A DNA stretch of 31,477 bases, taken from a virus. The DNA lies in the IMG/VR virus record IMGVR_UViG_3300025110_000071, positions 1 to 31,477 of that record; one strand, 5' to 3'. Shown in pieces: positions 11,356-31,147 of this stretch (the stretch's first letter is position 1; the number at the start of each line of letters is the position of its first letter). The notes beneath the pieces are model-generated. The model worked only from the letters and a program-made list of their open reading frames with translations, had not been told where the DNA came from and did no database searches. A program made the translations under genes and the position numbers.

Positions 11356-11365
11356 GCCTTGTGAG
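11351..11365. repeat. Inverted repeat between divergent starts
   Basis: CTCAC (11351-11355) and GTGAG (11361-11365) form a perfect 5-bp inverted repeat around a 5-base spacer. The two arms hold the divergent GTG start codons of the minus-strand zinc protein and the + strand zinc/HTH protein. It could be an operator for the HTH protein, or simply a result of two genes both starting GTGAG. Confidence 0.25.
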
Positions 11366-12041
11366 TGGACGCGTTACACGTCAATCTTGCGCTTTCTGTC
11401 AACACGGAGAGCGCGATGAACTGGAGGAGGGCTTACTCCAAGGTTCCATCATCCCGAAGATGCTCGATAAGGACATGGGATGGCGAGAAGGCACCGCGGA
11501 CCGCCATTTCAGAAATCACATGGGGGAGTTCCATATGGGTTCCAATAGCGATTGCGTCCTCTGCACTCACCCAGAGAGGGCTGAAGTGGAGCAGGCTTAC
11601 TTCACAGGTGGTATGAACAGCGAGGCCATTGCGGAGATAATCGGATGTAGCGAGTCGACCGTGTACCATCATCTCAAACACCATCTCAAACCCCTAGTCC
11701 AGAAGAGCGCGGCTGACATAGTCTCGATTGCAACAGGGAAGGAGATGGATATGATGCGGAGCAATCTGGAGAGGGTCAATGGTGAACTCGACCTGTTCCT
11801 AGATGATGCTGATAGGAACGACCCTGCATACATCAAGAATCTAGTGAGCCTGCATAAGGAGGTCCGTGATACCCTCACCACCATGGTGAGATTCCAAGAG
11901 AAGGCCATGGGTGATAACAACCAGATGATACAGGCGGACACCGTCAACATATTGAAGGTGGAACTAGCCAAGGAATCACCAGATGTGTGGAAGAGGGTCC
12001 GTGCTAAGTTACTCGAGGAGGATGAGCCCATTGAATCATGA
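11361..12041 (+). CDS. Duplicated zinc/HTH protein, candidate terminase small subunit
   Basis: A 226-residue protein from GTG 11361. The N-terminal 110 residues hold two copies of one unit. The first has C10-x2-C13-xHGERDELEE and ends with H49-x3-H53. The second has C65-x2-C68-THPERAEVEQ and ends with H103/H104 and H107/H108. In the second, residues 86-108 read as a helix-turn-helix (SEAIAEIIGCSESTVYHHL). Each unit can bind one zinc through two Cys and two His and present an HTH to DNA. From 115 on the protein is helical and charged, suggesting an oligomerising coiled coil. DNA-binding N terminus plus helical C terminus, and a position upstream of the large terminase, fit a terminase small subunit. 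A transcription regulator is the main alternative. No ribosome site precedes the GTG, so a near-leaderless message is possible. Confidence 0.65.
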   Translation: MSGRVTRQSCAFCQHGERDELEEGLLQGSIIPKMLDKDMGWREGTADRHFRNHMGEFHMGSNSDCVLCTHPERAEVEQAYFTGGMNSEAIAEIIGCSESTVYHHLKHHLKPLVQKSAADIVSIATGKEMDMMRSNLERVNGELDLFLDDADRNDPAYIKNLVSLHKEVRDTLTTMVRFQEKAMGDNNQMIQADTVNILKVELAKESPDVWKRVRAKLLEEDEPIES

Positions 12042-13771: not shown

Positions 13772-15396
13772 TGGAACAAGTAATACTGAAAGGGCAAGGA
13801 GTGACCTACGATGACCCTGAGTCTGGGGAGCGTATGTTAATGTCATTCCCTGACCCTGAGGGGATGACTCCTGATGGGCTGAGCCATGCTGAAATCAACC
13901 CCTTCTTCATTCACCCCAAGACAGGTCAATTGCTCGACCAGAGCAAGTTCCCGCATCGTTGGCCGATAGAGGGGTTGGCTCATAGTGCGGCTCTCGACAT
14001 AATGAAGAATGCCAAATTCGCCGGTCTCACTCCAGAAAGCGCCTTGAGAATCGCTAAAATCTGGCTCAACAAATCAGTGGATATGTTCAATAAGGAAATG
14101 AGGGAGAACGGCGATGCTGCTCACGCCCTACCTCACTACTTCGATGAGAATGGGAACATAAACCCAGATTGGGCCAGAGTGAACTACGGTAGTTACCAAC
14201 CGAAGGCCACCCCTACTCATCAGAGACAGACCAAGAATGCCGATGGTGTCGTCACTTTTCACACCAACAGTCACTCAGTTAAGGTGAATGGTCAGGACTT
14301 GGGCTTCTTCCCAGAGAGTGGAGCCTTCCCCACTTGGGCTTTCTTCAAGCAGTTGATGGACACCTACAGGGTAGGTAGTAGCACCGTTCTGAAACCCCAT
14401 GTCGACCCACAGGAGATGGTCATTGGCAATAATGGCGAAAAGGGACCTGTGACGAGGCATCTCAAGACTTGGGCTGCCCCTATGGGAGAGTACGGTATGA
14501 CTGAAGGTGAAAGAGGGCAGCGTGAGATGCTCCATGTCGACCAAATCATCGCTGGCCTAGACCCTCTCTTCTTCTATGGTAAGAAGGAGGGTGAGTACTC
14601 ACCGGACGCTGCTAGCAATCTGCAATCCCTAGGACTGACACCTGAACTCTCCTCTGCTGTAGCCCAGTCTGCAGTAGGCTCCTTCTTCAATCGTGACGCT
14701 CCCAAAGGAGGCACTGATGCTATCTCGACAGTAATGAGGCATCTGACAGAGAGGATAATGCAGCAGACTGGCATGTCCGCAGAGCAAATTCAATCATGGT
14801 CGCAGAAGTACGTGCGAGCCTATCAAGCGACAGGTATCGAGGAGCGTAACATACATCATGACAGTTCCACTGCACTCATGCAGGCACTGGCCATGTCAGA
14901 GGTGGCCCGGCAGGCCAATGCACATACTCCTGATGGTCCATCACCTGCTAGGATGGCATTACGTGGGTTGAGTGGTGGAGTCGAAGCACCTCGGCTGATG
15001 CCGAAGGAGGCCCCTGTGCGTTCCACTGACCTGAGCCATATCCGCGGTGAGATGGAAGTACCTGCCTATCTACCACTCCAGCCTTCGTTGGTCGAGCAAC
15101 CTAGCATAGGTCCGGGGAGGTCTGACGGGGAAGCATACGGGTCTGATGTCAGAACCTCCCAAGACAACATCTCGCAACTCATGGAGCATCTGCAGATAGC
15201 CGATGCTCGTTTGGATGATAGCATAATGAAGGAAGTCTCCGAGGTGCATGGGGAGGCCATCCTCCAGAGCAAGTTCGGCCTGTCCTCTCGTGACATCACC
15301 CTCATTAAATCCGCCCGGGGCGATTGGGACCGCCTCGCGAAAACTCTAATGGTGACACCCCGTGTCGTCAAGGTAGTGAAACTCTCGTTGAGGTGA
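13771..15396 (+). CDS. Unrecognised protein with HTH-like C terminus
   Basis: ATG 13771 overlaps the preceding TGA by one base (TGATG); a GTG three bases earlier is the only other close option. The product has 541 residues. The N-terminal 130 residues are ordered and mixed helical (NKSVDMFNKEMRENG); the middle has beta-like and His-containing stretches; residues 390-460 are Pro/Ser-rich and probably flexible. The last 40 residues (SSRDITLIKSARGDWDRLAK, then MVTPRVVKVV) look like a helix-turn-helix, with a Gly-Asp-Trp turn and a recognition-type helix. Position between the candidate small terminase and the large terminase would suit a packaging accessory that touches DNA, but that is inference. 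No catalytic motif seen. Confidence 0.7.
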   Translation: MEQVILKGQGVTYDDPESGERMLMSFPDPEGMTPDGLSHAEINPFFIHPKTGQLLDQSKFPHRWPIEGLAHSAALDIMKNAKFAGLTPESALRIAKIWLNKSVDMFNKEMRENGDAAHALPHYFDENGNINPDWARVNYGSYQPKATPTHQRQTKNADGVVTFHTNSHSVKVNGQDLGFFPESGAFPTWAFFKQLMDTYRVGSSTVLKPHVDPQEMVIGNNGEKGPVTRHLKTWAAPMGEYGMTEGERGQREMLHVDQIIAGLDPLFFYGKKEGEYSPDAASNLQSLGLTPELSSAVAQSAVGSFFNRDAPKGGTDAISTVMRHLTERIMQQTGMSAEQIQSWSQKYVRAYQATGIEERNIHHDSSTALMQALAMSEVARQANAHTPDGPSPARMALRGLSGGVEAPRLMPKEAPVRSTDLSHIRGEMEVPAYLPLQPSLVEQPSIGPGRSDGEAYGSDVRTSQDNISQLMEHLQIADARLDDSIMKEVSEVHGEAILQSKFGLSSRDITLIKSARGDWDRLAKTLMVTPRVVKVVKLSLR

Positions 15397-17306
15397 TTTG
15401 GGTGGCAGGGGATTTTGGTTTTGAGGTCTCTCGCATTGCCTATGGCGACCAGTTTGCAGTCCTCAAGGAAATGGCTCTCACTGGCGCAACGTCGCAGGAC
15501 TACGCTCACGTCTTCTTTGACGTGGGCCATAGCATCCTGAAAGAGAGGGAGGGTGACAGGACTGTCGTCAATACCGATTTGGAGGGTGCATTGAACTTCC
15601 CGGGAGCACATGGCTCCAAGGAGAATATACAGGCTAGGAAGAGATGGTTGCGGAGCCAACCGCATTTGTACGACCGTGAGACAGATACGTACAAGCACCC
15701 TCAGATGTCAGAGGTAGCAAAACCCGGCCTGATGGACCGATTCTCTAGGTATCTGGCAGACAGGAAAGGCAAGAAGGCAGCCAAGAAGGAGACTGAGCGA
15801 CAAGCGAAGTTGAAGCAAGAGATGTATGGGCAGGCAATAGAGGCCTTGCAGCACTTGGGCAGTAACAAGGATATCTCGCACAACCATCTACAGGAAGTCA
15901 TTAACATGATGCAGTGGATGCATCTCGGTGAGGGAGGTGGGCTTGACCAAGAGCAGTCAGAAAGCGGGCAGCAAACCCTCGAGCAAGCGCCACCCCCTGT
16001 GGAGGAACAAGTTGGGGACGGTGATTACGACGGTCTGAATAGTCGTGAGAGAAGAGAGATGCACCAGTCTGCAGCGGACCTGCACATGGCTACGAATCCT
16101 CCGAAAGCATCATCGGAGATTAGCGATTCTGATGAAGAAGGTCTTGAGGCCGCTGCTGAGGAAATACAGCAGGCCGCTGCAGAAGGAGGGGAGGACATCA
16201 CTGAAGAGGAGGCCCTTGAGATAGCATGGCACGCCCTCCATGAGACGAAGTACAGCACAGGTGGTGAGTTGGACTTCCTCCATCACCACTGGCCCTATTC
16301 CACGGCGGGAATGCCAGAGGGCGTAGAGGGTTTCCCGACACAAGGAGAGGGGTCCCAGAGGACCAATTTCTGGTCTAAGAACAACTTCCCCTTACTAGGG
16401 CTGAACCCTGAAGGGAAGAGAGTGATTTACAACCCAGTCGCAGAGATGTTCCGCGGGGATGAGGATGCCAGCCACCATTGGATGGACGCCCTCCGTGCGG
16501 CGGGGGTGTCGGCTACTGGACACGGTCAGAAGGGCAAGGGGGCAGCGAGAGCACCTCATGGAGCGAGGTTACTAATGACTAGAATGCTCGAGAATCAGGC
16601 TAATACCGGAAAAGACCTTCTCGCATCCGGTGAGAACGGCGAGGTCGATTGGGACCACTTCGCTAGCGAGTTGGAAGCAGCCAAGCAATTCTGGGCGTCC
16701 GACCCCTATGGCATCGGAGAGAGATTCTCCCTCGACACTCTCACTGGGTCAAGGGGGCCGGACAAGACAGACAGACAGACTCCGCAGTTGGGTCACTTCT
16801 CAAGAGGACAGGGTGGTGAGTTGAGAGATTGGGTCGGTAAGATACTCCCCCACTGGATGGGACAGCAATGGATGACTGGAGAGGGTGGCCCATTGGAGAT
16901 GGCTGGCCTCACCCCGGAAAACCATGGTCAATTCACGGAGAGCATGGGCAAGCGTCACGTTCTAGAGGAGGATAAGAGGAAAGCGAGCCGGACTCCTACG
17001 GGAACGGGTAATTATGCTACTGCTGGAACTGAGGGTGGAAATGTGGTTATCGACCAAAACAAGGTTAACGAAGCGGCGGGAGGGCCGGATACAGGGACGA
17101 TGACCGAGGGTCCTAGCCCGTGTGAGATACAAATGCCGGGGTGTCAGGGTAACGCTACTGGTCTAGATGCATCAGGAGTGTTACACACATGTGAGTCATG
17201 CAAAAACGCCTTGGGAGGAGATAGTACCATAGCGGCCGGAGAACCACACCTCGAACTGGACCCGTTCAACTTAGCATGGGGGCGTCTACTCAAAGGGCGT
17301 GATTGA
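15393..17306 (+). CDS. Unrecognised protein with C-terminal zinc knuckle
   Basis: I start it at GTG 15393, whose last two bases sit inside the preceding TGA; an earlier in-frame ATG at 15324 would need a 73-base overlap. This gives 637 residues. The N-terminal 100 residues form a compact domain (VIWVAGDFGFEV, then DYAHVFFDVGHSIL). A basic region follows (ADRKGKKAAKKETERQAKLK), then a long acidic helical section rich in Glu, Ala and Gln. A central ordered part contains many His and Trp residues (ELDFLHHHWPYS). Near the end C577-x6-C584-x15-C600-x2-C603 makes a probable zinc site. Family unknown. The stop overlaps the terminase start by four bases, so it is co-translated with the packaging motor and may be a packaging or head component. 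Confidence 0.72.
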   Translation: MIWVAGDFGFEVSRIAYGDQFAVLKEMALTGATSQDYAHVFFDVGHSILKEREGDRTVVNTDLEGALNFPGAHGSKENIQARKRWLRSQPHLYDRETDTYKHPQMSEVAKPGLMDRFSRYLADRKGKKAAKKETERQAKLKQEMYGQAIEALQHLGSNKDISHNHLQEVINMMQWMHLGEGGGLDQEQSESGQQTLEQAPPPVEEQVGDGDYDGLNSRERREMHQSAADLHMATNPPKASSEISDSDEEGLEAAAEEIQQAAAEGGEDITEEEALEIAWHALHETKYSTGGELDFLHHHWPYSTAGMPEGVEGFPTQGEGSQRTNFWSKNNFPLLGLNPEGKRVIYNPVAEMFRGDEDASHHWMDALRAAGVSATGHGQKGKGAARAPHGARLLMTRMLENQANTGKDLLASGENGEVDWDHFASELEAAKQFWASDPYGIGERFSLDTLTGSRGPDKTDRQTPQLGHFSRGQGGELRDWVGKILPHWMGQQWMTGEGGPLEMAGLTPENHGQFTESMGKRHVLEEDKRKASRTPTGTGNYATAGTEGGNVVIDQNKVNEAAGGPDTGTMTEGPSPCEIQMPGCQGNATGLDASGVLHTCESCKNALGGDSTIAAGEPHLELDPFNLAWGRLLKGRD

Positions 17307-18709
17307 GTGTGTCGAAGAACGTCCCTCAAGTGATTGAAGACATCGATTGGGAGATGTCAAAGAAGGACTTCAAGTTCTTCTTCGAGGAGATACTCGGTTG
17401 GCAGTTGGCTGACCATCACGCCAAGTGGTTCCATAACCTCAACACCCACAACCGATACTGCGTGAAAGCATCTCGAGACCACGGCAAATCTACTTTGTTC
17501 CTTGGCTATTTGCTATGGAAGGTCATATTCACCCCTCGGCTGGATACCATGATTTTCAGTCACAGCCTAGACCAATCCATCAGGCATATGAGAGGCCTCA
17601 ATGACCTCATTGACTCCAGCCCCATGCTGGCGAAGATGAAGGACAAGGACGCTTGGTCCAAGACCTTCTTCGGTTTCACCAATGGTTCTCGCATCAATGC
17701 CAAGTCGGTGGGTGGTGGTGTCAGAGGTGCTCACCCGGACCTCGTACTCTTGGATGACATACTCTGGGGGACCACTGATACCGAACTGCAACGTGTAGCA
17801 TCTTGGTTCTACGAGGTTCTAGTCCCCACAGTGCACCATACCTCCCAATTGTGCATCGTCGGCACCCCATTCACCCCCACTGACTTGTACACTGAATTGG
17901 AGAGGAGAGATGGTTATCTGGTGGAGACCTATCCTGCAATCAATGAGAAGGGAGAGCCCCTCTGGCCATGGCGTTGGTCCTTGGAGGCATTGGATATCCG
18001 GCGGATGGACATGCCTGCAATCGCCTTCACTCGTGAGTACCTCTGTGAGCCCATGGACGACATGTCCAGCCTTTTCCCATCCACTGTGGTCAATGCATGC
18101 AAGGAGCCGAATCTCACGTTGATGGACAGACGCCCGAAGGATGACGACAGTCAGTACTTCATCGGCTGGGACCCTGCGATATCCTCAGACAGGCAGGCAG
18201 ACTTTACCGTCATGCTAGTACTACGTAGACCGTCTGATGCCCCTGAGACTCTGGAACTCGTCCATGTCGTGCGTCGGAAGGCCATGGACTTCAGGACTCA
18301 GATAATGGAGATACAGAGATTGAACAGCAAGTTCCGTCCTGATGTCATCGAGTTGGAGGCAAATCACTTCCAACGTGTATTCGCCACTGAACTACGTGCC
18401 GATACTGACCTCCCCATCAAGACTTTCATCAGTACCAAACAGAGGAGGGAGAGCCTTCTTATGGGTCTGGTCCTTCGCTTCGAGCGAGAGCAGATTCGCT
18501 TACCGTATGGGGACGAGAGGTCCCGCGAACTCATCTCCAAACTGGAGCACGAACTAATCATGTTTGGTATGAGCAAGGAGGGTAAGTTGGACAGCATCGC
18601 TCGGCACGACGACTTCGCCATAGCCCTCGCTCTGGGTAACTGGGCTACCACTGAGTTCCGTGAGCGCATCATCGATTTGGACTCCTTGATGTCGGGGTTG
18701 ATAGAATGA
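17303..18709 (+). CDS. terL: Terminase large subunit
   Basis: This 468-residue protein is the DNA-packaging motor: an ATPase that pumps DNA through the portal and a nuclease that cuts the concatemer. The ATPase half has a Walker A variant S57-RDHGKST-64, Walker B L147-VLLDD-152 and a coupling motif GTP at 187-189. The RNase H-like nuclease half has D290 in GWDPA, E350/E352 in ELEANHF and D436/D437 in HDDF, the expected acidic triad. Length is normal for an HK97-type terminase. The start is TTG 17303, overlapping the previous stop and five bases after AAAGGG; GTG 17309 is an alternative. Its stop overlaps the LAGLIDADG gene, not the portal directly, which is unusual. Confidence 0.95.
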   Translation: MSVSKNVPQVIEDIDWEMSKKDFKFFFEEILGWQLADHHAKWFHNLNTHNRYCVKASRDHGKSTLFLGYLLWKVIFTPRLDTMIFSHSLDQSIRHMRGLNDLIDSSPMLAKMKDKDAWSKTFFGFTNGSRINAKSVGGGVRGAHPDLVLLDDILWGTTDTELQRVASWFYEVLVPTVHHTSQLCIVGTPFTPTDLYTELERRDGYLVETYPAINEKGEPLWPWRWSLEALDIRRMDMPAIAFTREYLCEPMDDMSSLFPSTVVNACKEPNLTLMDRRPKDDDSQYFIGWDPAISSDRQADFTVMLVLRRPSDAPETLELVHVVRRKAMDFRTQIMEIQRLNSKFRPDVIELEANHFQRVFATELRADTDLPIKTFISTKQRRESLLMGLVLRFEREQIRLPYGDERSRELISKLEHELIMFGMSKEGKLDSIARHDDFAIALALGNWATTEFRERIIDLDSLMSGLIE

Positions 18710-20079
18710 CTTGGGGCACTCTGATAATAGGGGATGATTATGACTCCTTGGTCAAGGAGGCAGACTCTGGGCGTTATTGGGTCACACAGCAGTTGTTGCA
18801 GCACCCTCTGCTCAAGTCCGGCCTGATACTAGACGAGGAGTTAGATGTGACTCCTCAGTATTCCCCGGTCTTGGAAAAGAGTGACACCAGCACCCTTTCG
18901 CCAACTGGTTGGTTCGATGGGACTTTCGGTGTTGACGCTAATCAGTTGGTCAAGGATTTACGTCGAAGACGCAGAGTGCACAAGGGGTATCGGGAGGAGA
19001 TAGATGACACTATTTCCCTCATTCGTACCCTGAAGAGCATGGAAGTCGATTCCCTTCTGAGTTCAATACCATGGATTGATGGCTATGAGCAGACTGTCAA
19101 GAACCTAGGATTGTCTGACCGTGATTTGAAGTCACTGCGTAAGTTCGCGGAGAGACGAGAGGTGTCCCTCAAGCAAGCATGTATCCAGTGGGATAATGCC
19201 AATGGGGTGCTTACCAAATTGTCTCAATTGAATGACTTGGACTCTGACCAACAGACTCTCTGGTCTGAAGCAGTCGAGAAGCGGAATGAAGCCAAGAAGA
19301 TGTGGAGGCATACATTGCATCAGACAGATACCTTGAGCAAGGATGAGGGGGTTTGGCTATCCTCTGCTGCTGAATTACTGCTAGAGAAGGGCCCTATGGG
19401 CTCCCGCCAGATTGTAGAGAGGATTATCAAGTACGACGCCCGGAACAAGGGCCTCACCCCTCAGAAGATGGGTGCTCTCCTGAAGATGTACGGTAGCGAG
19501 CATGACATCGTCAAGAACGGGTCTCGTTGGGAGTCCGAAGGCATGAATCACGATTTGCTTCTCAAGGACCCATGGGCTTATGCGGCAGGCTTCCTAGACG
19601 CTGATGGTTACATCACCATTACCAAGAGAGGAGAGCCTAGGGCTGGAATGATAGCCACAGGGACTCGAGGGAGGCTGCATTGTGAGCAGATGTACAAGAC
19701 TCTTGGTTGTGGTGTGTTGCAATTGGATTTGAAGATTCATAAGAACAGTCGCCGTAGTCAACACAGACTGCAGTTCTATGGCGCTGATGACTTGCGTAAG
19801 TTACTGAAAGGGGTCCTCCCACATCTCCAATTGAAGACCACACAAGCGAATGCCGTGCTAGAACTCTTGGATTTGAGGGGGCGAAGTAGTGATATCGCTA
19901 AGAATCGCCGTGTTGATTTGTACCGTGTAGTGAAATACGCCAATTGGCAGGATGTTAATGGTAAGGAACTTCTTGAAGAGTGGAAGGTTGATGAACAAGA
20001 CCTCGCCTCAATGGAGGCAGTGGACCCTGAGGTTATCCGCCTCGTGGATGATGCTGGTGGCATATTAGGTGATATTTGA
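18706..20079 (+). CDS. Winged-helix plus LAGLIDADG-domain protein
   Basis: A 457-residue protein. Residues 1-215 are unrecognised, with a basic run RRRRR at 86-90 and helical pairs after it. Residues about 216-277 look like a winged helix (SSAAELLLEKGPMGSRQIVE, later GALLKMYG and NGSRWE). Residues 290-395 are a LAGLIDADG-type domain: the motif is AAGFLDADGYI at 293-303, followed by a typical beta-rich half-site (HRLQFYGADDLRKLL). Both acidic residues of the motif are present; only one motif copy is visible. Homing endonucleases of this family cut DNA and dimerise when they have one motif. The gene is not inside an intron or intein: its start overlaps the terminase stop and its stop overlaps the portal start. 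That implies a role made in step with the packaging machinery, either as a DNA-cutting or DNA-binding packaging factor or as a lodged selfish gene. Confidence 0.8.
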   Translation: MTWGTLIIGDDYDSLVKEADSGRYWVTQQLLQHPLLKSGLILDEELDVTPQYSPVLEKSDTSTLSPTGWFDGTFGVDANQLVKDLRRRRRVHKGYREEIDDTISLIRTLKSMEVDSLLSSIPWIDGYEQTVKNLGLSDRDLKSLRKFAERREVSLKQACIQWDNANGVLTKLSQLNDLDSDQQTLWSEAVEKRNEAKKMWRHTLHQTDTLSKDEGVWLSSAAELLLEKGPMGSRQIVERIIKYDARNKGLTPQKMGALLKMYGSEHDIVKNGSRWESEGMNHDLLLKDPWAYAAGFLDADGYITITKRGEPRAGMIATGTRGRLHCEQMYKTLGCGVLQLDLKIHKNSRRSQHRLQFYGADDLRKLLKGVLPHLQLKTTQANAVLELLDLRGRSSDIAKNRRVDLYRVVKYANWQDVNGKELLEEWKVDEQDLASMEAVDPEVIRLVDDAGGILGDI

Positions 20080-21938
20080 TGGCAGATGAAGGTCGTATTG
20101 GGCGTTTCCTCGATAGGATGACAAAACCGTTCCGTCGTAAGACTACCCCTGAGCCGATAATGCCCCTTTGGAAGGCTGGCATACAGGAACCTGTCCTTGT
20201 CCAAGGTGTCAGCATTCCAGCACTCTACGCCACTGTGCAGGAGAGCATCATACTACGTACTACAATGAACACCCTCTGTCAGGAGATATTCAGGCGGGGC
20301 TTCTACTGGAAGAGGAAGTTCCACAAGCAATGCATGGATTGCGATGAGGAGTTCCAGCATGACGTCGATGAGTGCAAACTCTGTGGTAGTAGTGAGTTGA
20401 AGTCTGCTGACGCTGACCAGATTATCTACCCTAGGTGGTTCATCAAGCAGCGCAATAGCATGGACCAGTCATTCATGGATGTCCTCCGTGAAGTCGAATG
20501 GGACTTGAACATAGTCGATGATGGGTTCTATATCCTCGTCAAGGAGTATTACTTGGACCCCAAGGACGGACAGATACAGTTCTACAGGGTGAGGGATATA
20601 GTACGTGGCGACCCCACCTTCATGCGTATAGTGGCGGACAAGAAGGGGACTCGAGGTGGTCGTTATCTCATATGCCCCGTTCACAGGGACAAGACGTACC
20701 CACATAGCAAGGAGAGTCAGAAATGCGAGACCTGCAACCTCGATTTGCAGGACGTCCACTTCATCAATACTGCAGGTTCGGGCAAGACCCAGTACTACAT
20801 CGAAGGCGAGGTAGTCCACGTCTCCAAGTTCAATCCATCCAAACTCTATGGGCGTAGCCCAGTCGCTACACTGTGGCGTCAGGCGATGACCCTCACAGCA
20901 ATGGACAATTACATGTACCTCGCTTATCAGAAGAGGAGGATACCCAGAGGGGTACTCGCTATAACCACTGATAACATCCAATCCACAGCCTCCTTCTGGA
21001 AGGGTGCAGAGGAGAAGATGGAGCGTGACCCGAATTACATCCCCAAGGTGGGCATAGAATCAGCCACTGGGAGAGGTCGTGTGGAGTTCGTCCGCTTCAT
21101 GGACTCATTGGACGAGATGCAGTATGGTGCAGTCCGTGATGAGTTGAGAATGCGAATAGCAGCCTTCTATGGAGTCTCCAACATCTTCATGATGGATAGT
21201 GGCAAGGGTGGTGGACTCAACAACGAGGGCCTGCAGATTCTGGTCACCAACCGAGCAGTGGAGTTCGGTCAGAAACTGTACAAGAGGGACATCTTCCCTC
21301 GAATCTTCGAGGAGATGGGCATGACTGACTGGGAATTGACGCTGTACCCGAACGAGGAGGAGGATGACGTCACCCGTCTCCGTAGGGATGAGATGGAGGT
21401 CAATATCGCGCAGAGGATGCAGCAACTCGGCTTCCAACCCGAACTGACTGAGGATGCAGGTAGGGACATACGGTTCGTCTACAAGAAGCCCTCTCCTGAG
21501 GAGATGGAGCAGCAAGAGCAGTTGCAGAACGTGCAACAGCCCGGAGGAGGCGGGTCACCGCCACCAGCAGCACCGCCGCCACCAATGGCTCGCCCACCTA
21601 TGCCAATGGCAGGTGCTGGGATGGGGATGGCGCCCGGCATGCCGATGGGGAGACCTCCTATGAGAGGTCCCATGCCTGCAATGGGAGGTGCTGGAATGCC
21701 GATGGGAGGGGCAATGCCGCCCGGTGGCGCTCCAATCATGATGATGGAGAAAGGGGTGACTGGAGTACAATCCCCCAACTCCTCAGGTAGGGATTCCCAG
21801 TTATCAGGCGGGCGTAGGAAGACCAAGCAGCGAGGGGAGGAGGACTCACCTGAAGTGAAGGCTCAGAAGCAGATAGAGCAAGCCATGCGACAGGCTGAAG
21901 ACCCCATGGGTAACCAACCCAAGTCCAATCTCTCCTAA
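20079..21938 (+). CDS. Portal protein with two inserted zinc ribbons
   Basis: Starting at ATG 20079, which shares one base with the preceding TGA, this 619-residue protein is the probable dodecameric portal through which DNA enters the head. Portal-like features are the N-terminal wing with a helical region, the segment EVVHVSKFNPSKLYGRSP, the helix after it, and the VSNIFMMDSGKGGGLNNEG region, then a long stem/crown helix (RDEMEVNIAQRMQQLGF). Two zinc ribbons are inserted in the wing: C85-x2-C88 with C99-x2-C102, and C199-x2-H202 with C216-x2-C219. The C-terminal 110 residues are low complexity, dominated by Met, Pro and Gly from about 500 to 560, then charged. Family assignment rests on this architecture and on position after terL and before the protease and capsid genes. 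Confidence 0.88.
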   Translation: MADEGRIGRFLDRMTKPFRRKTTPEPIMPLWKAGIQEPVLVQGVSIPALYATVQESIILRTTMNTLCQEIFRRGFYWKRKFHKQCMDCDEEFQHDVDECKLCGSSELKSADADQIIYPRWFIKQRNSMDQSFMDVLREVEWDLNIVDDGFYILVKEYYLDPKDGQIQFYRVRDIVRGDPTFMRIVADKKGTRGGRYLICPVHRDKTYPHSKESQKCETCNLDLQDVHFINTAGSGKTQYYIEGEVVHVSKFNPSKLYGRSPVATLWRQAMTLTAMDNYMYLAYQKRRIPRGVLAITTDNIQSTASFWKGAEEKMERDPNYIPKVGIESATGRGRVEFVRFMDSLDEMQYGAVRDELRMRIAAFYGVSNIFMMDSGKGGGLNNEGLQILVTNRAVEFGQKLYKRDIFPRIFEEMGMTDWELTLYPNEEEDDVTRLRRDEMEVNIAQRMQQLGFQPELTEDAGRDIRFVYKKPSPEEMEQQEQLQNVQQPGGGGSPPPAAPPPPMARPPMPMAGAGMGMAPGMPMGRPPMRGPMPAMGGAGMPMGGAMPPGGAPIMMMEKGVTGVQSPNSSGRDSQLSGGRRKTKQRGEEDSPEVKAQKQIEQAMRQAEDPMGNQPKSNLS

Positions 21939-21949
21939 GCAATAGATTA

Positions 21950-22330
21950 ATGAGCAAGTCGTTCCTCGAAGGGACGATGTCGGACACGATTGTCAAACTC
22001 GACCCAATGGTTAGGAAACTCGAAACTAGTATTAGCGAGTTCAAGAACGCCCTGCAAAACAACGACTTGGTTGCTGCTCAGCAGTTCCTGAGGTCCATCA
22101 ACCAGACCAGTGACTACCTCTCGGAGGATGTCACTTCAATCTACAAGTCAGAGACAGAGGCTAACAAGGCTGTCGGGGTGAATGACATCTACGCTGGTGG
22201 TGCACCAGTCTTGGAATTCAAGGACCAAGGTGCCATCATCAAGGGTGACAGGCCTCTGGGATACATAGGCCCTGATGGAATCCAATCTAATTGGAAACCA
22301 CAACACGGTTTCGGACAGAGGGTTGACTGA
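21950..22330 (+). CDS. Small helical head-region protein
   Basis: A 126-residue protein from ATG 21950, eleven bases after the portal stop; ATG 21977, preceded by AAGGG, would remove nine residues. Residues 10-75 form amphipathic helices (DPMVRKLETSISEFKNALQ) suited to a coiled coil. The C-terminal third is Gly/Pro-rich with beta-like stretches and ends GFGQRVD. There is no recognisable family. The neighbourhood (portal, then three small genes, then protease and capsid) is where minor head or scaffold-assisting proteins are usual. Its stop overlaps the next ATG by one base. Confidence 0.7.
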   Translation: MSKSFLEGTMSDTIVKLDPMVRKLETSISEFKNALQNNDLVAAQQFLRSINQTSDYLSEDVTSIYKSETEANKAVGVNDIYAGGAPVLEFKDQGAIIKGDRPLGYIGPDGIQSNWKPQHGFGQRVD

Positions 22331-22686
22331 TGTCAGATGACGTCAGTACTCTCGTAGGTGCTCTCATCACCAAGATGGAGCGCATGGATGGCGATATCAA
22401 TACCCTCCAAGCGCAGAACGTCGAACTGAAGAAGATGGTCTCCAATCCAGATTTGCTATTGAAGCAGGCTGGTTTCGTCAGGGCTGTGACCCCAGCCACT
22501 GAGGATGTATGGGGTGACCCTCTCAGAGGTGAGAGGAATGAGGTCATCGAGAAGGCTGCAATCGCCATCGATGGTGTCATGGTCATGCCGGAGTCCAATG
22601 CTGATTGGCACGAGATGGGTTGGGATGACATTCATGCAATGGCCAATGAGGCCGCAGTAGTAGAAGGAAGGCCGGTGGACCAATGA
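22330..22686 (+). CDS. Small protein sharing a C-terminal motif with the scaffold
   Basis: A 118-residue protein whose ATG overlaps the previous TGA. Residues 1-38 look like a coiled coil (LVGALITKMERMDGDINTLQ). Near the C terminus M96-GWDDIHAMANEA-108 closely matches the end of the protease/scaffold protein at 31094-31129 (MSWDDVHRLAGKA), and both are preceded by a PES/PET turn. In both proteins a predicted coiled coil (ITKMERMDGDI here, VLAMSDRIDNM there) lies upstream. I infer that the two share a docking element, perhaps for the capsid or portal, and that this may be a small scaffold-like protein. No known family is recognised. Confidence 0.7.
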   Translation: MSDDVSTLVGALITKMERMDGDINTLQAQNVELKKMVSNPDLLLKQAGFVRAVTPATEDVWGDPLRGERNEVIEKAAIAIDGVMVMPESNADWHEMGWDDIHAMANEAAVVEGRPVDQ

Positions 22687-23318
22687 AACCAATGAAAGTG
22701 ATAGCAGGGGAGCACGCTCCTGATGTGGATGACCTACTAGAGAAAGCCAAGGACATGGATGACATGCTCACCAAGGTGGCTGAACTCAGAGACGACTCAC
22801 AGATGAGGAACATCACTGGTGTGGAGGAGGCTCCAATGTCTCACTACTGGACCAACCAGCAGCAACCGGAGGAGGGAATCGAGAGCGTTACGAACAGGGG
22901 TGCACTCAGTGAGACCATCTCCTTCGACACCAATGCCAACCCACACCAGACGGGCTCTACCCTATCTGCACACGAGAATAGCGGTGGGGAACTGAAGAAG
23001 GCAGGTCTCGAAGACCTACTAGCAGGTGCTGGTGGTGGCCCGAAACCACCCGGTGGACCACCCGGCTTACCCGGCATGGGCAAGCCACCCGGTATGGACA
23101 AGCCACCTATGGGTGACATGGATGACATGGGTGATGATGACCCTGACGGCCTCGCTGATAGAATCAAGGGTCTAGTCGATAAACTAGCAAGTAAGGCAGG
23201 TGGACCAGAGAAGATGCCTATGCCACCCGGTGGACCACCCGGTGGACCACCCGGTGGACCACCCGGTGCAGGCGGACCACCCGGTGGTATGCCAAAGCCA
23301 CCCGGCGGACCAATGTGA
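22683..23318 (+). CDS. Protein with PPGG-repeat tail
   Basis: A 211-residue protein starting at ATG 22683 with a four-base ATGA overlap. Residues 1-45 are an acidic amphipathic helix (DVDDLLEKAKDMDDMLTKVA). The middle (50-115) is polar and contains ordered-looking stretches such as VTNRGALSETISFDTN. From about 118 on it is dominated by Pro, Gly, Met and Asp, ending in tandem PPGG units. The repeats have a period of four residues, so they are not a collagen triplet repeat. Low-complexity Pro/Gly tails on the portal and on this neighbour suggest flexible, possibly interacting, head proteins. Function unknown. Confidence 0.7.
   Translation: MKPMKVIAGEHAPDVDDLLEKAKDMDDMLTKVAELRDDSQMRNITGVEEAPMSHYWTNQQQPEEGIESVTNRGALSETISFDTNANPHQTGSTLSAHENSGGELKKAGLEDLLAGAGGGPKPPGGPPGLPGMGKPPGMDKPPMGDMDDMGDDDPDGLADRIKGLVDKLASKAGGPEKMPMPPGGPPGGPPGGPPGAGGPPGGMPKPPGGPM
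23223..23270 (+). repeat. Four tandem 12-bp repeats (PPGG units)
   Basis: The unit CCACCCGGTGGA occurs head to tail three times from 23223, with a fourth copy differing by one base (GTGCA end). Related single units lie upstream near 23046-23066 and downstream near 23277. Each encodes Pro-Pro-Gly-Gly. The unit is close to an inverted repeat of itself. It is inside the coding frame, so it is a coding microsatellite that can change length by slippage without a frameshift. Confidence 0.9.
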
Positions 23319-23336
23319 GGTTGAGGTGGTGATTGT

Positions 23337-26300
23337 GTGTCTAGAGAGGACCCTCACCAGTTCTATCTAAGGGCTCGTGAAGATTTCATAAAGTCTCCCG
23401 GTCTCAACGAAGCAGCCAATCTCTACTTCGCTGTTGAGAACCTGCACGCTCACGGTATTCCTTTCCACACTCCCGACTCTGTGAGGAAGGCGTATCTCCT
23501 ATTGAAGAACGAAGACGTCATTGAGGGGGATGATGACAGTGAGAGTGGCTCTTATGGTGGATTCAAGGGTCAGACCGAGCAGGAAAAAAGAGACTTGAGG
23601 CGATTAGCACGAGAGAATGCTGATAGAAGAAAGGGGAAGACAGGGACTAAGTTTCGCAGAATGGACACCCCTAGCAACTACCCAGACCTACCTCCTGCAT
23701 TCGACCCCTCCACATCAGACCTGCCTTTGAGTGATTTCTTCAGGCACCACAACAAGGACTTGAGGACGTTGTGGGAATTCATGGCAGTGAATGAGAGGGT
23801 GGTCCCAGAGCAAATGGTAGATGCGTTCTATTCCTATCGCCCGACTGGTGACCACCCCCTCAGTAGCATATTCGATAGTGGGTTGGATGGCCAGAGCAAA
23901 TGGCACTCTCTCCTCGATAGGCTCTACACACCCACTAGTTCTGACAATGCAGCGACTCTGGATTCCAAGATGAAGAGGTACGAGGAGAAGTTCGGCTCCG
24001 CACTGGATTCCAATGAGATATCCACAGAGCGCTCCCATCAGGAGATGTTCGGCAAGTTCGATGACAATTCAGTAGGTCTCCATGACTTATTCCTCGGTGG
24101 CTTGGGTACATGGCAAGCCGGGCATAAGATGAATTACGGGCAGGAGGGCGATACAGAGAGTTATCTAGCACATCTCAAGATGAAGATGGAAGGCGTGCCG
24201 CAGTCCATCATCTCCCAGACCCTGTTCAATGAAGATGGCAGCCTCAGGAAAGACCACGCTACCCGTGCCAAGACCGCTATACGAAACTCTGCTGATTCGC
24301 AACAGCAGATGGGGCTCCTCCCCCTCCTACTGGGTCTCGAGAATCTAAGTACTGCAGATGGCAAGACTGCCATCAAGTGGTTCATGGATGGCGCGCAAGG
24401 CAACATCCAGAATAACCCCACCTCCCGCTCGGAGACGAACTTCCTCAATGGACGGAAAGACCCTGAGTCCCTACTGTCGCGTATCTGGAAGAAGCGGCTG
24501 AGCGCCATCTCTGCTGGTCTGACCACACCTCTGATACAGGCAGGGATACAGCAGTCTCCCACTAGAGCGACAGACATGTCCGGTTCATATGGTGGGAAGA
24601 ACTACAGGGGTTTCAAGAGGGACCCTTCCAGTCGTGAGGCGGACTTGTGGCACAAGGCCCTAGTATGGTGTAGAGCCGACAAGGATGGAGTGCATAAGTT
24701 GCACAGGGAAGAGAACCCCCCTGTGTTCCATCAGATGATGAACGAGTTCGGCATCCTACCGAATGGGAAGGGACATTACTCAGGCAGTCATCCTAAGATA
24801 AATGAGAAGTTGATTGACGATTGGTTGACGAATGGAGTCAAGGGCATCACTCGGGAGCAAGTAGCCAAATTGAAGGAATGGAAGGAGAAGGTCGAGAAGT
24901 ACTCGAGTAAGGATTGGACCAAGACAGCATGGGGAGCACCATATCACGCCCCTACTCATCCAGACGGAAAAGACTCCTTCTCCAAGGTGTATCACGACAT
25001 ATTCGCCTCTGGTGAAGGAGGGCACAGCATGAGCCCTGCCGATTTAATGCAAGCGATGCACCAGATGTTCGGTGGCATGTTCACGATGAGGCCTCATTAC
25101 GAGGCCAGTGATTTGCAAGGGAGCAATAAGAAGACTGTCAGGCAGGTGATATACGATGATGATGGGGTCGACACCCGGCGGGGCGGGGATGCTGACTTCG
25201 GTGGCTGGGCTGCAGCCACTGACATGATTGGGGAGAGTGGCATGGTGCCATACGCAGGGCGTGGGGAGTCAAAGGAGGGCGAACCGCTAGGGATGGACTA
25301 CAACTCTTGGTTAGGGATGCTCCTACCCAAGGACCGTGACATCATCAGCAATCTCGAGGGCTCAGGGAGCCCCTTGTATAGCACTAATAGCATGTATGAC
25401 TTCGCTGCGTTACCCAAACTCCCATTCTCCCTGAGGGACTATCACAAACAGCGTAGGTCTGCGGACCCACCGCAAAGGTCTGGTGACCGGATAGGGGACG
25501 GTCTCCATTTATCTAGCGATGATGCGAGACGACATATGGCTCATCAAACTAGTTACAACCTAGGCTCCACCTATCCCCATGAGGAGGAGCATGACCTAGG
25601 GGATGCCGATAGCATGACGCACCTCATCGACCTAGTGATGGGGATATTCCAAAGTCATGGGCAACCCCATTCATTCTTCGATGAGTTCTTAGGTGGTCCT
25701 GATTACTTCCTCAGTCAATTGCTAGACCGCCGTCATGACCCAATCACCGAGGACGTCTCCTCCCCCCTTCCAAATCCAGACCTCGCGACTATCGGGAGAT
25801 TGCTCGAAGGGGCGAATCTGATGCGCTACTTGAAGGAAGGTCGTACTGGCCATGAGAAGATAGCAGACTCGCCGTATGACAATATCGGGGACCGATACGC
25901 CCTCTACTACCATGACGAGGATGGGATATACCCCGGTACTGAGGGGGAGAGTGATGGATTGCTGCATGGCTTGGAGCCTGATACCGGGAGGGGTGACTCA
26001 GTTCCCCAACGCTTCAATGAGTTCAAAGCCTCTCCTGAGGCCACACCTATCGAGAACCTCCTCATACATCCCCACGAGAGAGTGTCCCATGGTAATAGGG
26101 GCATAGGCTCAGTGAAGGAATTGAGAGAACTGTTGGCAGGCCACCCCTCTGCCCCAGAATCCCTCGACTCCGTTTTCCATCAGCAGAGACTCAGTGCGAT
26201 AATCGCTGACTTGGCTAATAGGAAGGGTTGGGATAAAGAACGCGAGAGAACGGAACTCAGCAGAGCGACAGGGGCGATAGCCCCTGCGGAAACAGATAGA

Positions 26301-29300
26301 GTCGACGAATGGGGTAAATGGGTCCCACATGGTGGGATGGAGAACTATGATATATACCCCGTATTAGACCCAGATTCCGACAGCACTTGGACTACGGGTC
26401 GTTTCGGTAGACCTAGCCATGCAGAGGGCCCCTTGGCACGCCCCAGTCCTCTGTTGGAGGCAGATGACGAGGAGAACTGGGACAGCAATTTCAATGATAA
26501 CTTCTTCAAGTACCTAATCACATCGAGGGCCTATCGGCTGGGTAGCAAGAGACTCCAACAAGGTCGCTCAAGCGTCGACATGGGTCAGGGCTTGGTCGGT
26601 GACATGGGTCTGGGGGGTGGTAGTGAGGCAGAGGAAGATAGTGAGGAAGGTTCTGGGTACCTGCTTGCCCCAGAGCCCTTCTCTCTCATGTCTCGTCATA
26701 TAGAACGACTACGGGATTTGGCCCTAACCTTCTCAGAGGACAGCATAGCGCGCAAGAGGGTCGAAGAAGCCATACGCAAGCAGCAGGAGATGCAATTCCA
26801 AGTGGCGTATTCCAATCAAGGTGCCTTCGATGATTCCGATGCTCAGATTGGTAGGGTGAACTATGCTCATATGTTCCTCAGAATGATGGGGGATACCTTG
26901 CATCACACTGGTCTCGTCGCTCAGGCTCTCAAGAAGCACTTCATCTCACAGGACCAGAATAATGCTGGCCTCTTCGGGCCGGACCCTCAGGGATATGCGA
27001 ATCACATGGAACTCCTCCATTTCGCTAACTCCCTGCTTCACGCCCCTGACCAATCATGGCGGAAGGCCTTGGGTACAGAGATGGCCAAACTAGGTGATGA
27101 GCCCCTCTCCAATCAGATATCGGAGCCTCATACGGTATCATCCTACATATCTCCCGTGGTGAGAGAGGGAGTCTACAATCTCGAAGCAGGTCAGTTCGAG
27201 TCCGCAGAGGCAGATGGAATCGAGCATGAGCGAATGACTGGGGCCTTCAAAGGCGCTGAGATACCCAAGGGGACAGCCATCGCCCGACATTACATAGAGA
27301 ACGGGCATGGGATAGGAGGCGCTGATGTGCATGCTCGTGCCCGCCGTGCTTTGGCTATTCTAGATTTGTATAACTCGCCGGAGGACTTCATGGGGGACCT
27401 AGACAACATCTACTCTAGAGGCTCTAGAGGAAGGACCGTGACAGGCCCTGAAATCCAGAGGGGTAAGAGTGACTCTGTCGACAGCATTCGTTTCGCAGGG
27501 ACAACCAATCAAACGCGTGATGATTTCAGCGCCCTCATGTCGGTGCTTGGGAATATGGACACTGACTCCCGGAAGACTACTAGAGCCATTAGCGTACGAG
27601 ATAATGAGCCCCTTGGTGACTGGGGTGCAGGCTTCAATCAGTCAACTAGTATGGGCAAAGCCGCTCGTGGCAGAAGGATGGCCAATGCCACCCGTAGTAT
27701 TTCTCGTTTGCTGCACCCGTATAGTTGGGACTATGAGGGTAGCAGTGGTAAATTGTCTCTCAGCGAGACTGATAAGCCTAAGACCGTCCCCTTCGGTGGC
27801 AAGGAAGGCCTAGCGCCCTTGTCTCTCTGGTCATCGGGTGCACTCAAGCGGCGAGGAGGGAGTGTTACCCGTGCTAGCATCAATCCCACGTACACTGGCG
27901 GCCTCCCCACCATGACTGCCACTCATGGGGTTCCCGGAGAGGACAGAGCGAGAATCCATGTCGCTCCCAATGTCGCTAATCACCTGTTTGGTGAGTCTCT
28001 GGGCTATGAGGGTGATGTTCTTCACTCACCAGAGGCGGCGGACTACTACGAGACTGGTAATCAGAGAACAGCCGCTCAAAGGGAGTTGAGTACAGTGCCG
28101 CCTAACGAGACCATGGGAGATAGCGGTATCATGGCTCGGGGCTTCGACCTCGAGTTAGACGTACTCACAAACGAGGACCTCATTCACAAGAAGGACGAAG
28201 GGGACCCAGTCCCCATCAAACCCATGCACCGCATCTTCGCCCTCGATGACCTCGAGCATCTGAGAGGGTTCTCTGATGACTGGGTAGTCTCCTCTTGGCC
28301 TGAGGGGGAGAGGGTCATCGTTCACAAGAAAGGCAAGAAACTAGTCATCACCAACAGTGGTGGTAAGAAGGTCGCTATCCCAAACAAGGTCCGCAAAGAC
28401 ATCAGGAAGGCGTATGATGCTGATTTCATAGTGGATGCGATATGGGACGACGAGTGCCTGCATATCGTTGATGTCATCCAAGTCGCGGATGAGAAGGTAT
28501 GGGACGACCGAACGAAAGACAGAAATCGTTTGCTGCGTGCGAAATTCGAGGCTACTGATAACGTATCGATACCTGCACCTATCAATACCAAGAGAACCGA
28601 TAGTGAGGGACTGCAACGTGCATATGATGACCTCATGAAGGAGAAGGGGGTTAAGCAAATCCTCTTGAGGGACGCCGAAGCGACTTACATGAGAGGGGAA
28701 TCAAGACATCCGAAATGGGTCTTGTGGAGGCCTGACAAGACTATCGATGTCCGAGTGGTGTGCTCTTCTGGCGCACAGCATTGTCTAGGAGTTGGCCCTA
28801 TTGACGAGGAGATGGCTAGGAGCATTGGCAATCGCAGTCAGGAGTACGAGGGTGAGCATTACATGGATGTCGGTTCCCTGTACAGCACTAAGGTCGAGGA
28901 GGGGGATTACATCACAGTGGCTGTCTCTAGCACTTCCGTCACCAGCAGGAAGAAGACTGACATCTACCAAGTCAACGCCCCTCGATACATAGGCCCTTCA
29001 GAAAGTCATGCCACTGATAGTATTGACACCCTTCGTATTCTCTCGCCTGCTACAGAGCGTAACATACCACATAAGGTCAGGGTGAAGAAAGGCAATGTGC
29101 TCATCTCCTTCCCTCTAGGTGATGTGGTGTACGAGACTGAGTCCATAGGTCATGGTTTCATTATCAAGTCAGTCGATGCCCCTTCAGACTACCTCGGTAG
29201 GATAGCGGAGTCACAGAGGGACTACTGGGCTCCCCTCGCTGCCGTCCTTCTCAGGAGTGAGAGCGAGAAGATGAAAGAGAAGGATGAGAAGGAGGCTGTC

Positions 29301-29761: not shown

Positions 29762-31147
29762 GTGCTCATGCTGGACCAGCGGGTTATCGACCCTGTCTTA
29801 CTGAAAGGCAGGTCCAGTGACTTAGTCGTTGCAGGCTACGCATCAGTCGAGATGGTGGATAAGCAGGGCGACCTCATCACACGCGGTGCACTCAGGGACG
29901 CTTTCGGCAAATTCATGAAATCACCCGGTTTCAGAAACGTCCAACTAGCCCACTCCAATATACAAGTAGGTGAGGTGATACCCACTTACGAGGACACATC
30001 TGGCAGGATGTGGAAGTCAGAGGTTGATGACACCGGCATGTTCGTCGTCATCAAACTACGCAGTGACATAGAGAAGGCCCGTGAGGTCGCAGCAGAAATT
30101 CGCAAGGGGAACCTGAAGTCGTTCTCCATCGGTGGACAGGCTTTCGAGCGTGTCAATAAGCATGATGGCACCAGAGGTGACTATCGTGAGATAAGCCGCA
30201 TGGAGTTGCACGAAGTGACCATTTGCGAGAAGGGCATCAATCCTGAGGCCCAATTTAGAATCCTAAAGGAGGATAAAACAAACGGTGATAATATGACAGA
30301 CCCAATGAATGAATTGCAGAATGTGCTGGAGCGCTTATCCAAGCGTCTCGACGATGCTGAAGCCAGTGAGGCTGATGCTACTCTGAAAGCGAAGGAAGAT
30401 GCTGATAAGTCGAAAGACGATGCAGACAAATCCAAAGATGAAGAGAAGATGGACGAGAACAAAGAGAAGAGCGACGACGGCAAAGAAGAAAAAATGAAGA
30501 AAGGCGACTTAGATGACGTGATTACCACGGACTATCTGAACTGGCTCGAGACGACTGTGAAGTCCGCTGGGTTTGACCCAATGGCAGCACGCGGTCACTT
30601 CGAGGACCCCGAAGACGTGGGCAAGGCTTACCTCCAAGAGGGGAAGCATGGCTACGACCACAGGGGACAGGGCAGCATCGAAGGCGCTGGCGAGGATGAC
30701 TCAAGCAAGAGGCCAAAGATGAACTTCGGGTCCGCACCTAGCGGGAACAAGAACGTCATAAAGGGCGACTACCTTGACGAGTCCAGTGTCGAACCCTCAC
30801 AGATAGAGGAGGCTTATCAGGTCTACAAGGCCGCTGCAAAAGAGCAGCAGTTCAAGACTGACCTCGGTAACCAGTTCTCCATGAGGTTCCAGAAGGAGAT
30901 GCAGGTAGAAGCAGACGTTGCTGCCAAGGCATCTTACGATGCTAGGGACCCTATCACAGACCTTCAGAAGGCTGTTCTAGCCATGTCTGACAGGATTGAT
31001 AACATGGGTACTACAGGTGTTGACATCCAGAAGTCCGCAGCACCTGCGCTGAACGTCCACATTCCTGAGACCACCGAACTGGCACAGATGTCGTGGGACG
31101 ATGTCCACCGACTAGCCGGAAAGGCTCTACAGGGAGGTGACAACTGA
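29762..31147 (+). CDS. Prohead protease fused to scaffold-like tail
   Basis: A 461-residue protein from GTG 29762 (ATG 29768 is equally possible and loses two residues). Residues 1-168 are an HK97-type prohead protease, the serine protease that trims scaffold and capsid during head maturation. Catalytic His64 lies in QLAHS, Ser122 in KSFSIGG, and an acidic partner is likely in the MELHEVTIC strand. The strand order and the VAGYASVEMVDKQGD opening are typical. From about 175 to 250 a Lys/Asp/Glu-rich coiled-coil linker has a repeat (DADKSKD twice). The rest, to 461, is helical and ends with M443-SWDDVHRLAGKA-455, as a delta-domain-like scaffold that binds capsid. Fusion of protease and scaffold in one frame is known in other tailed viruses. 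Its stop overlaps the capsid ATG. Confidence 0.92.
   Translation: MLMLDQRVIDPVLLKGRSSDLVVAGYASVEMVDKQGDLITRGALRDAFGKFMKSPGFRNVQLAHSNIQVGEVIPTYEDTSGRMWKSEVDDTGMFVVIKLRSDIEKAREVAAEIRKGNLKSFSIGGQAFERVNKHDGTRGDYREISRMELHEVTICEKGINPEAQFRILKEDKTNGDNMTDPMNELQNVLERLSKRLDDAEASEADATLKAKEDADKSKDDADKSKDEEKMDENKEKSDDGKEEKMKKGDLDDVITTDYLNWLETTVKSAGFDPMAARGHFEDPEDVGKAYLQEGKHGYDHRGQGSIEGAGEDDSSKRPKMNFGSAPSGNKNVIKGDYLDESSVEPSQIEEAYQVYKAAAKEQQFKTDLGNQFSMRFQKEMQVEADVAAKASYDARDPITDLQKAVLAMSDRIDNMGTTGVDIQKSAAPALNVHIPETTELAQMSWDDVHRLAGKALQGGDN
31133..31140 (+). promoter_or_regulatory. Strong ribosome site of the capsid gene
   Basis: GGGAGGTGA ends six bases before ATG 31147. GGAGGTGA is the full complement of the usual archaeal 16S rRNA 3' end, and I see no equally good site with this spacing elsewhere in the window. 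High translation of the most abundant virion protein is the natural reading. The site lies inside the end of the protease gene. Confidence 0.7.

Follow-up and report, generated by a model that had tools for sequence, protein, structure and literature searches.

A LAGLIDADG protein fixed between the terminase and portal genes of probable magroviruses, a candidate domesticated homing nuclease

Introduction

I-MsoI, I-CreI and I-CvuI are homodimeric LAGLIDADG homing endonucleases of group I introns in 23S rRNA, and single-motif enzymes of the I-CreI-type fold work as homodimers that cut near-palindromic sites and leave four-nucleotide 3′ overhangs. Yeast HO is a domesticated homing-type nuclease. 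ICP1 Odn is described as another (PMC10448857). Cleavage at cos by the terminase large subunit (TerL) of HK97 is stimulated by an HNH protein, gp74 (PMC9410871, PMC11331095). Whether nuclease genes next to terminase genes, such as that of gp74, are selfish or serve packaging is presented as an open argument in PMC10448857, where the domestication of homing genes as genome-end-processing machinery is also proposed, the closest idea in print to the one developed here. In herpesviruses, the LATLNDIERFL pattern of pUL56 has been likened to LAGLIDADG by its authors and reported as crucial for replication (PMC6950143). Here, we describe a gene encoding a LAGLIDADG protein that lies between the terminase large subunit gene (terL) and the portal gene of an uncultured virus, in IMG/VR record IMGVR_UViG_3300025110_000071, positions 1–31,477 (the whole 31,477-nucleotide stretch is hereafter the window). 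This protein is a fixed, vertically inherited and probably catalytic nuclease of homing-enzyme descent, which probably now works for the virus.

The window most likely belongs to a magrovirus. Magroviruses, viruses of Poseidoniales, are described by the International Committee on Taxonomy of Viruses as having genomes of 90–110 kb with a DNA polymerase B and as related to Druskaviridae (PMC12999244). The assignment follows from the fit to this description: the closest named relatives of the portal protein are those of the haloarchaeal viruses HCTV-5 and HVTV-1 (29–30% identity), related records reach 102–118 kb, and DNA polymerase B was found in 6 of the 12 records examined, including all five longer than 100 kb. 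Viruses of this group appear to infect abundant ocean archaea. The main text of a magrovirus genome survey (PMC10160649) makes no mention of endonuclease, homing, HNH or LAGLIDADG. Our literature search found no paper that joins magroviruses with LAGLIDADG, although the magrovirus literature may contain an earlier annotation, and, among the papers listed, no such case in work on LAGLIDADG proteins with terminase or portal, domesticated homing enzymes, HNH proteins in packaging, or archaeal and Poseidoniales viruses.

A constant gene between terL and portal

The gene and its two neighbours are arranged as follows.
18706–20079, plus strand: gene of the LAGLIDADG protein (457 amino acids, ATG start), between terL and portal
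17303–18709, plus strand: terL (PHROG 38, E 5.9e-54)
20076 (TTG start) or 20079 (ATG start) to 21938, plus strand: portal gene (PHROG 18178, E 1.2e-72)

The open reading frame coordinates bear out both overlaps proposed in the original prediction: the ATGA at 18706–18709 joins the start of the gene to terL, which ends at 18709, and its stop overlaps the portal gene from either portal start. The gene is likewise, as proposed, neither carried by an intron or intein nor an interruption of another gene, being a free open reading frame that overlaps full-length terL and portal genes. An Rfam search of window positions 14000–24000 returned zero matches, and hence no known group I intron lies there.

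The original prediction held that relatives lacking the gene, with terL and portal directly adjacent, would mark it as a recent selfish insertion, and that conserved presence would support a packaging role. We compared 179 distinct portal 5′ sequences, of which 160 showed the order terL, LAGLIDADG gene, portal; nine had the gene and portal with terL outside the available stretch, and ten lacked the gene. The gene was therefore present between the two in 160 of 160 distinct loci having this group’s terL and portal, and no gathered locus with matches to both was without it. Within the virus group, the arrangement that would have marked a recent selfish insertion was therefore absent; more distant viruses do lack the gene. 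Homing genes are expected to be patchy, with empty alleles, whereas here every distinct locus was occupied; like the gene of HK97 gp74, the LAGLIDADG gene is a conserved neighbour of terminase genes. All 20 long records carried a single copy (in two of them, the match fell in two pieces of one frame).

These counts draw on several surveys. A first survey, seeded with the LAGLIDADG protein, yielded 79 loci from 122 relatives, and surveys seeded with terL and portal were added to offset its bias. Among the 80 terL-seeded loci, the gene was found in all but seven (with the later profile) or eight (with the first profile), and those loci stop at most about 1.5 kb past terL and hold no portal; in the survey seeded with the magrovirus portal, the gene preceded portal in 80 of 80 loci. 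The collection scans were pattern-based and biased to near relatives, each taking the best 80 of 122, 139, 413 (twice) and 565 loci. The per-locus counts overlap; the deduplicated counts leave out loci L232–L238 and L311 onward, and they use this group’s terL profile, which halovirus terL does not match.

The open frames of the gene and portal lie at most 60 nucleotides apart in 140 of the 160 loci, and those of terL and the gene in 82. In some relatives, other genes intervene between terL and the LAGLIDADG gene, their open frames reaching 544 amino acids as read from the translations. Small uncharacterized genes of recurring types occupy this slot in many relatives, in L113–L149, L052–L056 and others (for example, by eye, proteins with NLNRWFKEKWVDVSRKDKDGKHPPCGRSKAKKGSKGYPKC), and the LAGLIDADG gene stays.

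The ten portal sequences without the gene come from HCTV-5-type loci and the methanogen virus vir335, whose terL genes are missed by the profile of this group. We inspected 18 halovirus-type loci (L239–L256): five had an HNH match between terL and portal, nine had terL directly before portal, and in four terL went unrecognized. Merging near-duplicates left nine loci, four with an HNH match, four with terL directly before portal and one unknown. The HNH genes in this slot thus come and go, as expected of mobile genes, whereas the LAGLIDADG gene does not. Two bacterial phages with a distantly related terL, one of Bacteroides and one of Alteromonas, matched the terL profile (E 7e-57 and 5e-21, respectively) but had no such gene within 5 kb on either side of terL; the gene therefore marks this virus group and not all viruses with a related terL.

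A conserved active site and vertical inheritance

Not one of the residues D298, D300, K377, R312, G319, H353 and R354 varied among 161 distinct proteins, 13 partial sequences having been set aside. These include the two acidic residues whose conservation the original prediction had proposed to inspect, and their constancy, together with the full occupancy of the locus, supports its view of a domesticated nuclease over that of a recent selfish insertion. In the profile alignment, D300 falls on D20 of I-CreI and K377 on K98, residues that we take, under this numbering, to be catalytic.

Conservation is unevenly spread along the protein. Mean pairwise identity was 92% in the motif helix, 82% in strands b1–b2 (residues 301–318) and 72% in strands b3–b4 (residues 337–357); it was 55% in the later helices of the domain, 46% in the helical region that precedes the nuclease and 37% in the winged helix. 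By homology with I-CreI-type enzymes, strands b1–b2 and b3–b4 should form the DNA-reading surface, which would place this surface among the best-conserved parts of the protein.

The LAGLIDADG gene is under purifying selection: its median ratio of non-synonymous to synonymous substitution rates (dN/dS) was 0.06 (22 pairs), compared with 0.036 for terL and 0.039 for portal, as calculated from up to 25 of 155 close pairs. A homing gene is expected to have a phylogeny independent of its neighbours; here, over 140 distinct loci, the Mantel correlation was 0.88 between the gene and terL and 0.92 between the gene and portal, next to 0.93 between terL and portal. Supported tree conflicts involved 22 of 97 splits for the gene against terL, 8 of 97 for the gene against portal and 17 of 76 for terL against portal. 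The inheritance of the LAGLIDADG gene follows that of terL and portal.

Domain architecture

The protein divides into the following parts.
18895–19332, plus strand: helical region, residues 64–209 (AlphaFold2 confidence of 92 for residues 64–280; no recognized fold)
19333–19545, plus strand: probable winged-helix domain, residues 210–280 (structure matches with Z up to 9.4; weak HARE-HTH match)
19555–19947, plus strand: LAGLIDADG domain of the I-CreI/I-MsoI type, residues 284–414 (profile and predicted fold)
19579–19608, plus strand: LAGLIDADG motif YAAGFLDADG with D298 and D300 (D298, A299, D300 and G301 in 96 of 96)
19834–19836, plus strand: K377, aligned with Lys98 of I-CreI (profile alignment; 161 of 161)

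A single LAGLIDADG motif with both acids had been read from the sequence, and we recovered it as YAAGFLDADGYI at residues 292–303. PHROG 5046 was matched by 64 of 64 relatives scanned (residues 290–391 in the window’s protein), the family profile matched I-MsoI at E 8.7e-11, and the predicted fold agreed; the motif is therefore no chance match. PHROG 5046 carries the label HNH endonuclease, which looks wrong because its match spans the LAGLIDADG region. In place of the HNH nuclease domain of the HK97 gp74 type, the nuclease domain here is LAGLIDADG.

An AlphaFold2 model of the whole protein, built from 64 aligned relatives, had a mean predicted local distance difference test score (pLDDT) of 85, and residues 64–280 modelled alone reached a pLDDT of 92 and a predicted template modelling score of 0.78. 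The LAGLIDADG domain of the model aligned with 2fld at Z 14.6, with a root-mean-square deviation of 2.2 over 130 residues; I-MsoI, I-CvuI, I-CreI or engineered variants made up the first 27 rows among the structure matches listed, and the first 44 chains listed by Foldseek for this domain had E values of 8e-6 to 5e-4. The winged helix proposed ahead of this domain is probable: in the model of residues 64–280, residues 210–280 of the protein (model residues 147–217) align with winged-helix chains in VIA-align with Z up to 9.4, a good but not strong score given the tool’s own warning that best Z values of 7–8 are common. The only hint from sequence was HARE-HTH at E 0.09, under its cut-off.

Some 200 N-terminal residues, which the original prediction left unrecognized, match no family convincingly. 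The helical region (residues 64–209) had no Foldseek match in the PDB at E 0.001 or better, a negative that does not by itself point to a new fold. A search of the phage collection gave no match at E 0.01 for the full-length protein and three weak mycobacteriophage records for the LAGLIDADG domain alone. The BFVD entry A0A516LD89 (E 1.4e-18 over 383 columns) is likely a distant relative, as far as this alignment indicates.

Origin of the nuclease domain

Seven relatives came from a pattern-based scan that covered 84,980 species of bacteria and archaea, each represented by a single genome. One of these, on a contig binned with a Cytophagaceae metagenome-assembled genome (L232), matches residues 66–454 at 53%, and the contig looks like a misbinned magrovirus. 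The other six, from Patescibacteria-type bins or one unassigned bacterium, share the LAGLIDADG domain only (27–32%). In all six loci (L233–L238), the gene is flanked by a 23S rRNA match on one side and the 5S gene on the other: it sits between two 23S pieces in L238, overlaps the 23S end in L237 and lies up to 2.5 kb past the 23S match in L233. Two of the six loci also have a group I intron match. Since the cellular relatives sit in rRNA operons, the nuclease domain is of the rRNA-operon homing-enzyme type. The full architecture of helical region, winged helix and LAGLIDADG domain was found only in these viruses.

Other genes of the window

Further genes bear on packaging and head assembly.
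11361–12041, plus strand: possible small terminase, a helix-turn-helix (HTH) protein with a helical tail (weak label), about 5.3 kb upstream of terL
29762–31147, plus strand: prohead protease (Peptidase_S78, E 9.2e-10)
31147–31476, plus strand: 5′ part of a gene that runs past the window end, probably that of the major capsid protein (assigned by its position following the protease, not by family search)

The residues D290, E352, D436 and D437 of terL, presumably TerL’s own nuclease residues, were each kept in at least 97 of 98 relatives. The LAGLIDADG protein itself had no terminase match in PHROG or Pfam. The conserved HTH protein at 11361–12041, with relatives in 59 of 149 loci, may be a small terminase, a label only weakly supported by its family matches: PHROG 2538 (‘terminase small subunit’, E 0.0023) was matched by two of eight members, other HTH families score better, and a comparison with HCTV-5 gp103 gave the label no support. 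Two giant genes, at 2–7579 (at least 2525 amino acids) and 23337–29729 (2130 amino acids), had no Pfam match over the cut-off; the latter sits within the head gene block, with portal on one side and the protease on the other.

Searches for a target site and genome ends

We examined 12 long records together with the window for a shared target. Perfect palindromes with half-sites of 7–9 bp and gaps of 0–8 were found in no more than 3 of these 13 sequences. Six 13-mers were common to at least 8 of the 13, all from one block in the capsid gene (window 31322–31340). No 5-bp inverted repeat was shared by more records than the core of this block, TGAAC-N5-GTTCA (10 of 12), and no 6-bp one by more than TTGAAC-N5-GTTCAA (7 of 12); TGAACCAAGAGTTCAA with a 3′ extension was the most widely shared word, an observation that coding constraint explains well enough. 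The block’s codons ranked first in sets of 10 genomes, and the exact word occurred in 43 of 70 distinct capsid genes. As a target, the block was rejected: in those 70 distinct capsid genes (of 85), its best window ranked sixth of 98 and the permutation p for the top window was 0.40. The inverted repeat is also disfavoured because its 5-bp spacer gives an odd centre.

Codons 135–147 of terL (window 17705–17743) show unusually uniform GGT/CGT codons around a conserved RG motif in 165 sequences. Their synonymous constraint reached a window z of 5.3 with a permutation p of 0.053, and we do not claim them as a target.

Contig starts were compared in 12 records, G005 contributing no upstream sequence. 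Several contigs begin about 20 kb upstream of the gene, and the genes at those starts lie at different distances in other records. The two ends of record G004 share 206 direct 25-mers; this repeat, some 230 bp long, would fit a circular assembly. From the contig starts and end repeats of the long records, no cos or pac site was inferred.

Discussion

On balance, we lean towards the view that a domesticated homing-type endonuclease is now a constant part of the DNA-packaging module of magroviruses. The role best suggested by the location of the gene, its coupling to its neighbours and the example of HK97 gp74 would be one in packaging, for instance in cutting genome ends together with TerL. A more specific version, which we offer tentatively and hold to be somewhat less probable, makes the LAGLIDADG enzyme an essential packaging nuclease that, with TerL, makes the virion ends at one conserved genome site, probably with four-nucleotide 3′ overhangs. 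The protein would dimerize through its LAGLIDADG helix, and the dimer would read a single conserved, nearly palindromic sequence of about 20 bp in the virus’s own DNA; a recognition surface that does not change implies an unchanging target, and the viral genome is the simplest place for one. Its N-terminal parts could tether it to the terminase or portal, where it would cut or nick concatemeric genomes, or trigger the TerL nuclease, so that packaging ends would be made or trimmed as they are by the HNH protein gp74 with TerL in HK97. As TerL keeps its own nuclease residues, the LAGLIDADG protein would assist and not replace it.

Several observations weigh against such a role. Because the TerL nuclease residues look intact, a second nuclease is not obviously needed. 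In 78 of the 160 loci, the gene lies more than 60 nucleotides from terL, with variable genes in the long gaps, and tight coupling to terL therefore does not hold everywhere. The nuclease domain is better conserved than the winged helix and N terminus, and several relatives are without the first ~65 residues. The positions of Gln47 and Arg51, which have active-site roles in I-CreI, align with G319 and G322, both glycines in 161 of 161 proteins, in an alignment that is perhaps off by a residue. Finally, several searches for a target site found none.

Among the other explanations, a nuclease for defence or exclusion, directed like ICP1 Odn against a satellite, plasmid or competing virus, seems unlikely to us. 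Homing-derived nucleases have been put to such use (PMC10448857), but a patchy gene with a changing recognition surface would then be expected, whereas the magrovirus gene is constant, its recognition strands are conserved and it is located within the head and packaging block. Slightly less likely still is a selfish homing endonuclease at fixation that persists through ongoing homing between co-infecting viruses. The fold does come from a homing family, with six cellular loci in rRNA operons, two of them with a group I intron match; homing genes are described as clustering near terminase genes (PMC10448857), and the gene tree has some supported conflicts (22 of 97 splits against terL). Set against these are the absence of any empty allele in the 160 loci, a dN/dS of 0.06, and an agreement of the gene tree with its neighbours about equal to that between terL and portal. 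The nuclease is also fused to a conserved N-terminal part and its strands are conserved; there is no interrupted gene, and no intron was found by Rfam at 14000–24000. Moreover, the HNH genes that occupy this slot in halovirus-type loci do display the mobile pattern.

The shared gene block and the retained nuclease residues would also suit an enzyme of replication or concatemer processing that trims branches or ends before packaging without direct terminase contact. We consider this improbable: a constant location with a packaging gene on each side points to coupling with TerL or portal, and LAGLIDADG enzymes with a single motif recognize sequence and not structure. The least probable explanation, in our estimate, is a DNA-binding factor that does not cut, either a regulator or a second small-terminase-like adaptor marking the genome. 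The combination of winged helix and LAGLIDADG recalls WhiA-type regulators, and two I-CreI active-site positions align with glycine, yet the constancy of D298, D300 and K377 in 161 of 161 proteins is hard to explain without catalysis.

For the packaging nuclease that we favour, the usual ambiguity between selfish and packaging roles is small, since none of the 160 distinct loci is an empty allele, the active site is intact and the DNA-reading surface is conserved. In these uncultured ocean viruses, a homing enzyme would have become part of a virus machine, and the case is clear and testable. It predicts defined genome ends, visible by virion sequencing; if true, packaging ends would come from a captured homing enzyme, reached independently of the HNH route.

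Several known systems resemble this one in part. Like HK97 gp74, the gene adjoins the terminase genes, and stimulation of TerL cleavage serves as our working model; gp74 belongs to the unrelated HNH nuclease family, and the magrovirus gene lies between terL and portal. HCTV-5 (Druskaviridae) carries the HNH genes gp104, gp106 and gp108, of which gp106 occupies the same slot, and its portal is related; unlike the constant LAGLIDADG gene of magroviruses, HCTV-5-type HNH occupancy is variable (four of nine distinct loci). The magrovirus protein shares its fold, single motif and catalytic Asp and Lys with I-MsoI, I-CreI and I-CvuI, but it is intron-free, its nuclease domain is joined to a helical region and to a probable winged helix, its recognition strands are conserved and its gene is fixed in a packaging operon. 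ICP1 Odn and yeast HO are likewise homing-derived nucleases that serve their carrier, though in other tasks and, for Odn, with another nuclease family. For herpesvirus pUL56, a LAGLIDADG resemblance has also been claimed in a packaging protein, but there it is a short motif inside a terminase subunit, whereas the LAGLIDADG domain of magroviruses is complete, retains both acids and belongs to a protein separate from the terminase.

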